From contig JAAYBR010000130.1 of assembly GCA_012730045.1 (NCBI GenBank), positions 1 through 59,652 of the forward strand: DNA of 59,652 nt. Direction: 5' to 3'. Source of the DNA: Candidatus Hydrogenedentota bacterium. GTDB taxonomy: Bacteria; Hydrogenedentota; Hydrogenedentia; Hydrogenedentales; CAITNO01. The position numbers and the translations under genes are program-made. A model generated the notes under the pieces. It ran no database searches, had not been told where the DNA came from, and saw only the letters and a list, made by a program, of their open reading frames with translations. Positions 53,605 through 57,693 of this stretch are shown one piece after another; positions within the stretch are counted from its first letter, which is position 1; every line of letters starts with the position of its first letter.

Positions 53605-54000
53605 GAGCCTGTCCTCCGGTTGCGCCCGGTCCCGCGAAACATGCAGAAGCCTACCGCACGGGGGCGGAAAAGGCAAGGGGGCAGGCTATGGCGGATTGCC
53701 AGACAGGCGGGGGGCCGGCCTCCTTCAGAGAGGTGGAGAGCGAAGTGACCGAAAAAAGCGCTGAAAGCGCGGCACTAAACAGCCCGGGGCGTGAGCCCCG
53801 GGAAAGCGACCCCTCCCCCCATCCCCCGAGCCCCGAAGGGGCGGCACAAAGGCCTTCCGCGGATGTGCCGTGCTTTCAACGCTCTCCAAAGAGGACGGGT
53901 GCATCCGCATTCCCGGGGCTCACGTCCCGGGCTGTGCAATACCGCGCCCTCGGCGCCCCGGAGTGTGGCCTGGCCAGCCACTTGTCCGGCAGTCCGGGAC
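53605..54000. other. Gap with palindromic repeats between sulfatase and BlaR1-like gene
   Basis: No gene is seen in 396 bases. The main feature is the inverted repeat at 53781-53933. CTGAAAGCG and CTTTCAACGC-type halves extend the dyad symmetry outward. The plus-strand frames here are shadow frames. Confidence 0.6.
53781..53933. repeat. Inverted repeat of GC-rich 24-bp arms
   Basis: AGCCCGGGGCGTGAGCCCCG plus GGAA (53781-53804) pairs with TTCCCGGGGCTCACGTCCCG plus GGCT (53910-53933), with one mismatch. The loop is about 105 bases with its own smaller hairpins (CCCCGAAGGGG). Confidence 0.85.
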
Positions 54001-57000
54001 TCAGGAGGCGGGTTCCTCAAAGAACCTGCCACGCTTCGCGGGATCAACTGCGGACAGCGTCAGCAGGACGAACTGAACCGTTTCAGGCGCCTCCGTGTCA
54101 CAGACTACGGCGACCGTTTCCCCCGGCGCGAGGGGCATCCGCAGGGTCACGGGGTGGTCGCGCACCTTGGGGGCCGTCCCGCGCCGCAGCTCGTTGAGGT
54201 AGACCGTGACGTCCAGCGGGGCGGGCGGCCCGGCGGCCCCCGCGGCCAGGGCGAACACAACGCCCTCATGGAGGGGTGCCTGGTTCCCCTCCCCGGAAAC
54301 CGGCTGGGTGGTCAGGTCTGCCATCACGACGCAGGGGGGCGTCTGCGCGCGGAACCGGGAAAACGAGGGGCTCAGGGCGTCAAGCGTTCGGAGAGGCGCG
54401 TCTCCCGGCCCCGGATTCCGGTTTTCGTCCCTCCTCCAGAGAACCTTGGGCGGCGTCTTCCCCGGTATGAACGTGCAGCGGGGCGCCGAGACAAGCATCG
54501 TTCCCTCCACCTTCTCAAGGCCGTTGAGCACCTGTTCCGCATCCGGAAAGCGGAACACGCGCACGTCTTCCGGCGATCTCGTCTCGACAAACATCTGATT
54601 CACCCACTGTGGGCTGGACATCACCGTCTCTGCCAGCCCCATTCTTGGCACATGGAAGAACCGGGCCTCCACGGCATACTGCGGGCCCTTCTCCTCCCCG
54701 GCCTGCGCGGCCGCCGCGGCCTCCTCCCCCGGTTTCGGGGCCATCTCCACGGACTCCACGACGCCCTGCGCCTCGGACCACGACAACCCCGGGATCATTA
54801 CCCCCTCCGTGATCCGGCTGCGCACCTCGGGCGCGGACACGACCTCTCCGTCGAACACGATGGCGAGCTTCCGGCCCACGCCCGCCTCGGTGGCCGCACC
54901 GAAGGCCGCCGCCGCTTCGGGCCGCAGCGTGAGCAGCACGTCCCGGGTGCGACCGTCCTCCGACGGTCTGATGGCCGCGCGCAGCACGCCATACTCCGTA
55001 AGCAGCGCCTCCGGCTCCAGCCGCAGGCGGCCCTCCCCGTGGCCCTTCGCCCACGGCACCTCCTCCCCGCCCCCGTCGCGGGCCTCCCAGCGAAACGCCA
55101 CATAGGGCCCCGTCCAGGCCGGCTCGGGGGCGCCGTCCCTGGTCTCCGCAACCATGTGAATTCCCTGCCCGTCGTCCGCGACGAGCCGCGCCGTCTTCTT
55201 GACGGCGTTGATTTCCGTGACCGTGAAGTCCCCCACGCGCGCGCCCTCGTTGTACCAGTGCAGCCCGCCGTCCGTGTCGCGGATCAGGGCGCGCTTCACC
55301 CCGCTGTCAAGCGTGCGGACGCGCACCAGCGCCGGAACCGTCCCCGTTCCCGCCGGGGCCTGCGCACCGCGCGCCGTCACCAACAACTTTCCGTTTTTCG
55401 GGACGCACACGAGGTTCAGCGGGCGCAGCATGCAGGAAAGCGCCGTCCGCGCCGCCACGTTGCCAAGAAAGACCCTGGGCAGCCAGGTCCCGGCCGGGGG
55501 AGCCTCCCCTTCGAAGGGGGGCGCCCCCCCCCGGATGCCGTCCGGCCCCACGGGGCCATATAACCAGGTGGACTGATCTTCAGAGGGGGGCGGGATCGCC
55601 TGAGTGTCCAGCACGAGGGGGAGATCGTAGGAGTCCGCGAGGAACTCCACCACCTGCTGGACGTGAATGTCCTCAAACTCAACCGTGGTCGGCGCGTTGA
55701 GGACCTTGTCCCATTCCGGGAAAGCCCCGGGCGCGGGCACGACAGCCCGGGCTGATCCATCGGCGGCGTCCCGCCGCAACTGCTCCGGCGTGCTCACCCA
55801 CACCACGCCCTCCGCGGATTCATAGGCCAGGCCCAGGGGTTCCAGCATCTTCGTCAGGGCTTCCCGCAGGGCGACGTCGCGGCAGTCCACCGCCGCCACC
55901 ATGCCGTCTGTCGCGTAGGCGGCGGTGCCCCCCTTCACGGTGTGCCCGTCCCTGCGTGGCGGCGGCGCAATCACCCGCCAGTCCAGGGCGAAATCCACAT
56001 CATAGGCGTCTGCGGCAAAACTCAGCACGTCCCACAGATGCACCTTGTTGAATACCAGGGAAGCGGGACGTTCGAGCGCCTTTTCCAACTCCGCCTGTAT
56101 GGTGTCCGGCGGCGTGTCGGCGGACACCTGCCCGCCAAAGGTTCCGCCGGTCCCCAGCGCGGCGGCCGCGAGGAGCAGCAGGCCGGCCACGGCCCACATG
56201 CCGGGCCGGGCGGGGCACCGCAGGGGGTTGGCCAGCAGGGCCGCGATGCGTTTTCCGATCTGGGTGCGCGTGGCGCCGAGGGTTCCCGCGAAGGCGCGGT
56301 CGCGCCGCCCGCGCATCTGCGCGAGCACCTCGTACAGCGTCCCCGCATAGGCGTCCGCCTCACCCGGCGTGTTGATGAGCGCGCGGTCGCAGGCCAGTTC
56401 CGCCTCCTCCTCCCACCGCGCCGCCGCCCACCAGGTCGCCGGATGGAAGAAGAAGAGCGCCCGCGCCGCCTGGCGCACCAGGTTCGACAGGGTGTCGCCG
56501 AGCTTCCAGTGCATCAGTTCGTGCCGCAGGGCCCAGGAGACCACCCCCGGCTCCCCCGCCGTGTGCAGCCACGCGGGCAGCAGCACCACCGGACGCAGCG
56601 TGCCCGCCAGCGCGGGCGACTCCACCTCGTCCGTCACCACCAGCCGCGGCGGCCGCCGCACCTCCAGTCCGCGGGCCGCTTCGGCGTAAAGCGCCGCGCA
56701 CGCCGCCGACGGGGCCGCGCCGCGCCGCACCAGCCGGCGCAGCCGGACCGCGTCCAGCGCGCGGTGCAGCGCCATCAGCCCGGCGAGCAGCCCCCACAGC
56801 GCCGCCCCGGCCCGGCGGGGGTCGGCGCGCCGCGCGACGTCCGCCCACGCCTCCCACCAGGGCCGGGCGGCCGTGTCCGCCGGTACCGCCGCCGGGGCCG
56901 GACGCGGCGGCGCGGCGGGGGCTGTCAGCAGTTCATCGTCCCAGGGTGCAGGGTCCACCGCCAGGTAGGCGACCTGCGGTTCCTCCACAATGAGCACGGG

Positions 57001-57225
57001 ATACAGCGGCCCGAGGGCCAGCGCGGCCAGGGGCTTCGCCAGCACCAGCAGCCAGAGCAGCGCCCGCACGCGCGGCGACGCCGGCCGCGCCAGCGCGATC
57101 ACCATCCCCACGGCGAGCGCGAGGACCGCCATCTCCAGGCTCGCCCAGAAAAGGCGCTCCAACACAACGTTCCCGCCCAGGTACCACAGCCATGCGTTCA
57201 TCTCTTCCGGCAGGCGCATGGTCAC
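54001..57225 (-). CDS. BlaR1-like M56 membrane peptidase with STN, SecD-head and secretin-like periplasmic domains
   Basis: The 1074-residue protein starts with GTG 57225, overlapping the blaI stop, or with ATG 57219. Residues 1-360 form the M56 part with several membrane helices and the zinc motif HELMH near 235 (ALRHELMHWKLGD). Residues about 375-600 hold two STN-type repeats (FNKVHLWDVLSFAADAYDV and FEDIHVQQVVEFLADSYDL). Residues about 765-820 look like the SecDF P1 head domain (LTLRPEAAAAFG, RKLAIVFDGEVVSAPEVRSR). A secretin-like C-terminal part (MLVSAPRCTFIPGKTP) follows. No penicillin-binding sensor domain is seen. The adjacent BlaI suggests a signal that leads to repressor cleavage; the ligand is unknown. 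Confidence 0.82.
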   Translation of the reverse strand: MTMRLPEEMNAWLWYLGGNVVLERLFWASLEMAVLALAVGMVIALARPASPRVRALLWLLVLAKPLAALALGPLYPVLIVEEPQVAYLAVDPAPWDDELLTAPAAPPRPAPAAVPADTAARPWWEAWADVARRADPRRAGAALWGLLAGLMALHRALDAVRLRRLVRRGAAPSAACAALYAEAARGLEVRRPPRLVVTDEVESPALAGTLRPVVLLPAWLHTAGEPGVVSWALRHELMHWKLGDTLSNLVRQAARALFFFHPATWWAAARWEEEAELACDRALINTPGEADAYAGTLYEVLAQMRGRRDRAFAGTLGATRTQIGKRIAALLANPLRCPARPGMWAVAGLLLLAAAALGTGGTFGGQVSADTPPDTIQAELEKALERPASLVFNKVHLWDVLSFAADAYDVDFALDWRVIAPPPRRDGHTVKGGTAAYATDGMVAAVDCRDVALREALTKMLEPLGLAYESAEGVVWVSTPEQLRRDAADGSARAVVPAPGAFPEWDKVLNAPTTVEFEDIHVQQVVEFLADSYDLPLVLDTQAIPPPSEDQSTWLYGPVGPDGIRGGAPPFEGEAPPAGTWLPRVFLGNVAARTALSCMLRPLNLVCVPKNGKLLVTARGAQAPAGTGTVPALVRVRTLDSGVKRALIRDTDGGLHWYNEGARVGDFTVTEINAVKKTARLVADDGQGIHMVAETRDGAPEPAWTGPYVAFRWEARDGGGEEVPWAKGHGEGRLRLEPEALLTEYGVLRAAIRPSEDGRTRDVLLTLRPEAAAAFGAATEAGVGRKLAIVFDGEVVSAPEVRSRITEGVMIPGLSWSEAQGVVESVEMAPKPGEEAAAAAQAGEEKGPQYAVEARFFHVPRMGLAETVMSSPQWVNQMFVETRSPEDVRVFRFPDAEQVLNGLEKVEGTMLVSAPRCTFIPGKTPPKVLWRRDENRNPGPGDAPLRTLDALSPSFSRFRAQTPPCVVMADLTTQPVSGEGNQAPLHEGVVFALAAGAAGPPAPLDVTVYLNELRRGTAPKVRDHPVTLRMPLAPGETVAVVCDTEAPETVQFVLLTLSAVDPAKRGRFFEEPAS

Positions 57226-57626
57226 TCCCTTTCCTTGTTGCGTGTTTCGACCATCCGGCGGATTTCCTCCAAGTCCTCCGCCGTGATGTCCGGGTCGTTC
57301 AGCAGATAGGCCACCGCATGCCGCGGCGACCCGTCAAAGAAATCGGCCACCAGCCCCCGGATGGAGCGCCGCGCCACCTGTTCCCGGGCCACCGTGGGCC
57401 GCAGCCGGTACCCCCGCTCCGTGCTCGGCACCACCGCCACATACCCCTTCTTCCGCAGGTTCGCCAGCACCGTCTTGATCGTCGTCGCCGCCAGCGCGGG
57501 CTCCCGCGTGTGCGCCGCGATCACCTCCGACGATGAGCACTCCCCCAGCGCCCACACCACCTGCATGATCTCCCGCTCCAGCCGGGACAACTCCGGCAGC
57601 CGCTCTTTCCTGCTCTTGCCCATCAT
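57222..57626 (-). CDS. blaI: BlaI/MecI-type transcriptional repressor
   Basis: The 134-residue protein has a winged-helix N terminus (LSRLEREIMQVVWALGECSS, then IAAHTREPALAATTIKTVLA) and a helical dimerisation tail with the DITAEDLEEIRRMVE region. GGAGGAC lies before the starts at 57626 or 57623. The downstream M56 gene overlaps its stop by 4 bases, so the two are coupled. Its own promoter carries a palindrome, so autorepression is likely. Confidence 0.93.
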   Translation of the reverse strand: MMGKSRKERLPELSRLEREIMQVVWALGECSSSEVIAAHTREPALAATTIKTVLANLRKKGYVAVVPSTERGYRLRPTVAREQVARRSIRGLVADFFDGSPRHAVAYLLNDPDITAEDLEEIRRMVETRNKERE

Positions 57627-57637
57627 GGCCTGTCCTC

Positions 57638-57674
57638 CGACTATGTTTGCCGCTTACGACTATGAGTATAGTCG
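57638..57674 (-). promoter_or_regulatory. Predicted BlaI operator
   Basis: CGACTAT-GAGT-ATAGTCG (57657-57674) is a perfect 7-4-7 palindrome that covers the -10 box. A further half site CGACTATG lies at 57638-57645, on the start side. BlaI binds similar dyads, so repressor binding here would block the promoter. Confidence 0.7.
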
Positions 57675-57693
57675 AAACGCGCCCGGTTGTCAA
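57665..57693 (-). promoter_or_regulatory. Consensus sigma70-type promoter of blaI
   Basis: On the minus strand TTGACA (57688-57693), a 17-base spacer and TATACT (57665-57670) form a near-perfect promoter. The transcript would start about 30 bases before the blaI start codon. The operator palindrome overlaps the -10 box. Confidence 0.85.

Follow-up and report, generated by a model that had tools for sequence, protein, structure and literature searches.

The stretch of DNA analysed here (the window, 59,652 nucleotides from a Candidatus Hydrogenedentota genome of 4.46 Mb) encodes a BlaI-family repressor together with an M56-peptidase receptor whose ectodomain combines two STN/secretin N0-like domains, a putative GspC-HR/PilP-like domain, a SecD P1-head and a secretin-core-like tail. 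With moderate confidence, we propose that these two genes form a self-regulated proteolytic switch of the BlaI/BlaR1 type with a new input, namely the status of either polypeptide export or a secretin-type envelope machine. Support for the domain architecture and for the link with BlaI is good; the proposed input draws on the roles of related domains elsewhere. The open-licence literature that we searched yielded no report of an M56 protein carrying a SecDF_P1_head domain.

A repressor-receptor gene pair under its own operator

The gene pair and its control region comprise the following features, in window coordinates:

57222..57626, minus strand: blaI-family repressor gene, 134 aa (Penicillinase_R)
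57665..57693, minus strand: sigma-70-like blaI promoter, TTGACA-17-TATACT (11/12 matches; 0.0 expected in shuffles)
57657..57674, unstranded: operator dyad of the BlaI type, CGACTATACTCATAGTCG, which overlaps the -10 box (sequence and conservation)
57638..57644, minus strand: extra (third) operator half-site ATAGTCG beside the blaI ribosome-binding site (TAGTCGGAGG in loci L007 and L028)
54001..57225, minus strand: M56 receptor gene, an open reading frame of 1074 aa with a GTG start

The blaI product belongs to the BlaI/MecI family, as it scores 87.1 bits against Penicillinase_R (Pfam, cut-off 22.6), and it aligns over its full length with MecI (1okr) and BlaI (1sd4). Its stop is overlapped by 4 bp by the GTG start of the M56 gene, and the overlap is present also in another Hydrogenedentota genome, G039. 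The arrangement of promoter and dyad is common to the window, L028 and L007, the last of these being the nearest public relative (a Candidatus Hydrogenedentota MAG, genome G291), which is 96% identical over receptor residues 1-302 and whose contig stops before the ectodomain; in G039 the dyad at the same arrangement reads CAACTATAAATATAGTCG. As in BlaR1/MecR1 systems, then, the receptor has an adjacent BlaI/MecI-family repressor and an operator at a shared promoter, and the overlap and the conserved operator and promoter bear out the proposal of an earlier, sequence-based note on this DNA that the pair is one signalling unit.

The operator core RACTATNNNNATAGTC occurs with zero mismatches once per genome in the window's genome (G000), G291 and G039, each time at the blaI-M56 promoter. 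A search of these three genomes for the exact operator found no second site and no wider effector regulon, and a single one-mismatch site in G000, considered as a regulon member, was rejected because it was at control level. With the exact operator confined to this promoter, the switch may have the receptor as its output, or else genes whose operator sites are weaker. The same restriction, together with the gene next to the receptor in G039 being on the opposite strand, would also suit an M56 protein that acts as effector rather than sensor, serving as a scaffold or envelope protease whose amount is all that BlaI sets. We consider this improbable, as a pairing of M56 with BlaI is how such sensors are canonically arranged, and, wherever the upstream region of other blaI-M56 pairs is readable, most of them have their own dyad in that position.

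The window's genome contains a second BlaI/M56 pair (L042:655-4329, plus strand, contig C146), with the operator TACGAACGCCTTCGTA and a receptor ectodomain of CarboxypepD_reg repeats plus an AhpC/TSA thioredoxin-like domain. As each pair has its own dyad, the two appear to be insulated from each other. Between the M56 gene of the window and a sulfatase gene lie two inverted copies (53783-53802 and 53912-53931) of a GC-rich, REP-like hairpin, CCCGGGGCGTGAGCCCCGGG, of which the window holds no further copies.

The peptidase half

Four features define the membrane-embedded half of the receptor:

56236..57144, minus strand: membrane-embedded M56 peptidase domain, residues 28-330 (Pfam, 93.5 bits)
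56509-56523, minus strand: zinc motif HELMH, residues 235-239
56398-56400, minus strand: third zinc ligand, E276
56137..56193, minus strand: last transmembrane helix, residues 345-363, ahead of the ectodomain (hydropathy)

The Peptidase_M56 match, from a Pfam search with the whole protein (cut-off 31), places the receptor in family M56, and H235, E236, H239, E276 and D280 are invariant in an alignment of 11 M56 relatives. A profile built from these relatives matches the solved BlaR1 structure 8exs at 1.6e-20; the blaR1_generic score is 59.5 bits against a cut-off of 400, with the match confined to residues 158-330. A simple hydropathy scan, in which the third BlaR1 helix is not clearly separated, places membrane segments near residues 28-46, 56-74 and 345-363. 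In BlaR1 the protease lies on the cytoplasmic side and cleaves BlaI directly (PMC9834060), and we infer by analogy that the M56 domain of the window protein would face the cytoplasm and cut its own BlaI.

With a transducer half so like that of BlaR1, it might be imagined that a cell-wall fragment or a beta-lactam is sensed in BlaR1 fashion through a site that escaped recognition. This seems very unlikely. Searched with Pfam over its whole length, the protein has no penicillin-binding or transpeptidase domain, and thus lacks the sensor of BlaR1 and MecR1; both ectodomain models match other folds, that of the C-terminal region matching secretins rather than a penicillin-binding protein; and neither a beta-lactamase nor a PBP is found among the adjacent genes examined, which encode by Pfam a sulfatase, a D-Tyr-tRNA deacylase, a glycosyltransferase-like protein and a nucleoside deoxyribosyltransferase-like protein. 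A conventional beta-lactam sensor was rejected on Pfam domain content, and the view of the earlier note that the input is probably something other than beta-lactams is supported.

An ectodomain built of STN, SecD-head and secretin-like parts

The ectodomain is divided as follows:

55765..56097, minus strand: STN1, secretin N0-like, residues 377-487 (STN, 22.6 bits as an isolated domain; fold)
55360..55695, minus strand: STN2, secretin N0-like, residues 511-622 (phmmer match to STN1; fold)
55141..55347, minus strand: putative GspC-HR/PilP-like domain, residues 627-695 (fold only)
54766..55029, minus strand: SecD P1-head domain, residues 733-820 (Pfam, phmmer and fold)
54004..54681, minus strand: secretin-core-like C-terminal domain, residues 849-1074 (AF2 model and structural matches)

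The order predicted from the sequence, in which the HELMH peptidase was followed by two STN-like repeats, a SecD head and a secretin-like tail, is recovered by Pfam, phmmer and fold comparison, although it passed over the HR-like domain. A model of residues 365-826 resolves into four fold blocks by structural matching (STN1, STN2, the HR-like domain and the head); its mean pLDDT of 82 and pTM of 0.55 indicate that single domains are reliable whereas their mutual arrangement is uncertain. In the whole protein the Pfam STN match (20.5 bits, residues 444-479) is below the cut-off, but phmmer matches STN1 and STN2 to one another and to some 20 further M56 proteins, and an ectodomain profile finds the N-terminal domains of PilQ in the PDB (best 4ar0, at 8e-5). 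The fold of STN1 matches PilQ N0, EscC and a FecR-like anti-sigma factor with Z of 8.4-9.1, and that of STN2 matches the GspD N0 domains of 4jtm and 3ezj with Z of ~8. Residues 627-695, between STN2 and the head, are modelled with a fold that would resemble GspC (3oss, Z 8.8, rmsd 2.1 Å, 61 aligned) and PilP (2y4y, Z 8.2), a probable addition to the domains previously listed; a sequence-level match for this domain was sought and not found.

The SecD P1-head is the best supported of these parts. Pfam assigns SecDF_P1_head to residues 733-814 (46.6 bits, E 3.6e-12, curated cut-off 27), a wider stretch than the residues 765-820 to which the earlier note had assigned the SecD resemblance; phmmer with the single protein aligns residues 757-820 with Thermus SecDF P1 (3aqo, E 1.5e-6), and the fold matches Thermus SecDF with Z of 13.7-14.3 and a Foldseek E of 1e-7. 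Chance or low complexity as the source of the match is ruled out by this agreement of three independent methods and by retention of the motif in relatives. The domain thus corresponds to the P1-head subdomain of the SecD/SecDF translocase and not to full SecD with its RND membrane region, as the SecD equivalog TIGR01129 scores 31.6 bits against 244.4 and matches residues 749-817 only. In SecD the P1-head binds substrate in a pocket and is in contact with the chaperone PpiD (PMC11470409), which makes it plausible that the head in the window would bind polypeptide, although it may instead have lost peptide binding and serve as a spacer alone.

The tail has no Pfam secretin match and no sequence match to any known family, and its assignment comes from the AF2 model of residues 821-1074 (pLDDT 76, pTM 0.76). 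The 24 best VIA structural matches to this model are all secretins, with Z from 9.6 to 7.5 and the next row at 6.6, which identifies a secretin-core fold; by Foldseek alone the matches to structures are weak. Homologues of the tail form the C-terminal ends of other M56 proteins that have no head (L094, L098).

SecD heads on other receptors

The earlier note regarded a SecD head on an M56 protein as unusual. It is indeed rare, and the exact order M56-STN-STN-HR-head-tail was found only in the window and G039 in a survey of 68 Hydrogenedentota genomes with about 126 M56 matches above the cut-off, but the fusion of M56 with a head is also recurrent: eight of the 68 (G000, G002, G009, G010, G034, G039, G046 and G052) encode M56 and SecDF_P1_head in one open frame, in several M56 lineages, so that a fusion unique to the window is ruled out. 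G053 encodes the two in neighbouring frames that overlap; a HEAT-head fragment lies at a contig edge in G051. What lies between M56 and the head varies, from STN (window, G039) to HEAT repeats (G046, G052) and MlaD plus LolA-like domains (G010), with nothing recognised there in G002 and G034. The fusion is present also in one genome of a Verrucomicrobiota sample (L088); none was found among 109 Planctomycetota genomes, where only those with an extra head were inspected and a single head match was assumed to be SecD. In one of these Planctomycetota genomes, G072, a Ser/Thr kinase of the Hanks type (L080:1139-2851, plus strand) has a single membrane helix and, outside the membrane, a C-terminal SecDF_P1_head (40 bits).

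Several further architectures were noted. The M56 receptors at L026:2031-6131, L029:1983-6500, L027 (split over two frames) and L033 (cut at a contig edge) have a long ectodomain of HEAT repeats with a SecD P1-head at its end, and those at L030:1977-6851 and L031:1690-9762 are at least 1625 aa long, with MlaD-like, LolA-like and SecD-head domains (Pfam was run on L030). Non-SecD proteins with a head, as TPR plus head or head plus CarboxypepD_reg, occur in Planctomycetota (L084:255-3305, plus strand, genome G122) and Hydrogenedentota (L035:1019-2593, L036:1206-2828).

Mapping the head onto the M56 tree takes 4-5 label changes, of which well-supported branches force no fewer than three, and a single origin of the fusions is unsupported. 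Given these changes, the different ectodomains it accompanies on M56 proteins and its presence on a Ser/Thr kinase, the SecD-head behaves as a mobile ectodomain module, and this recurrence fits a sensory one. It is tempting to speculate, although only tentatively, that the P1-head has repeatedly been captured as an extracytoplasmic sensor on receptors like BlaR1 as well as on at least one membrane Ser/Thr kinase, so that a piece of the Sec motor might sense export load directly and relay this to transcription or phosphorylation.

It is also conceivable that the two N0/STN domains, or the HR-like domain, serve as docking sites for a partner of the outer membrane or of secretin type, with the head a structural adaptor and export itself unmeasured by the receptor. 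STN is the domain by which TonB receptors pass signals to FecR anti-sigma factors, and the STN folds here match the signalling domains of FpvA, PupA and FecA in addition to the FecR-like anti-sigma factor; STN is, moreover, the commonest relative of the window ectodomain among M56 proteins of the phylum. In type II secretion and in pili, N0 pairs with GspC-HR/PilP, and 3oss, matched by the HR-like domain, is such a GspC-GspD complex, which makes docking through these parts credible. We nevertheless think this account rather doubtful, as the orthologue in G039, which is about 45% identical across the aligned part of the ectodomain, keeps the head with its core motif, and the head recurs on M56 proteins that lack STN.

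Proposed mechanism

For the switch that we favour, BlaI would occupy the dyad that overlaps the -10 box of its own gene, repressing blaI-M56. The M56 protein would be anchored in the inner membrane, its zinc protease extending to the cytoplasm and some 700 residues lying outside, where the N0, N0, GspC-HR/PilP-like, SecD P1-head and secretin-core-like parts would recognise some feature of either polypeptide export or a secretin-type envelope machine, for example exported unfolded chains bound to the head or a partner that docks on the N0 and HR-like parts. We infer a direction of activation in which ligand binding would turn the M56 domain on, leading to cleavage of BlaI and opening of the operon. 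Judged by the roles of the SecD P1-head and of secretin parts elsewhere, the most likely input would be the state of polypeptide export or that of a secretin-type machine, either one, and the suggestion in the earlier note of export or envelope sensing seems reasonable.

Comparison with known systems

BlaR1/BlaI is known almost solely as an antibiotic-resistance switch. The window pair shares with BlaR1/BlaI and MecR1/MecI of Staphylococcus and Bacillus the M56 HExxH motif and Glu ligand, a C-terminal extracytoplasmic part, the adjacent BlaI-family repressor and the operator over the promoter; it differs in that its ectodomain is of N0, HR-like, SecD-head and secretin-core-like parts with no penicillin-binding sensor detected, and in that its adjacent genes show no beta-lactamase or PBP target. 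The switch appears to be a general chassis into which lineages plug differing sensors, including Sec-motor and secretin parts. Hydrogenedentota M56-STN receptors such as those of L049, L053 and L055 also carry STN pairs behind M56 that are related to the pair in the window, but unlike the window protein they have no SecD head match and most are without HR and tail. With SecD/SecDF P1 the head shares its fold and motif, although the window protein has none of the RND membrane part of SecD. Likewise, the N0-like and secretin-core-like folds are those of type II secretion and type IV pilus secretins, and the HR-like fold is probably that of GspC/PilP, but here they are on an inner-membrane receptor chain. 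If the head does read exported chains, the pair would be a new type of secretion monitor, and would offer a concrete test of stand-alone polypeptide binding by a SecD P1-head. Its purpose would then be that of the VemP-SecD secretion monitoring of Vibrio, although VemP acts by translation arrest (PMC11470409), unlike a protease-repressor pair.
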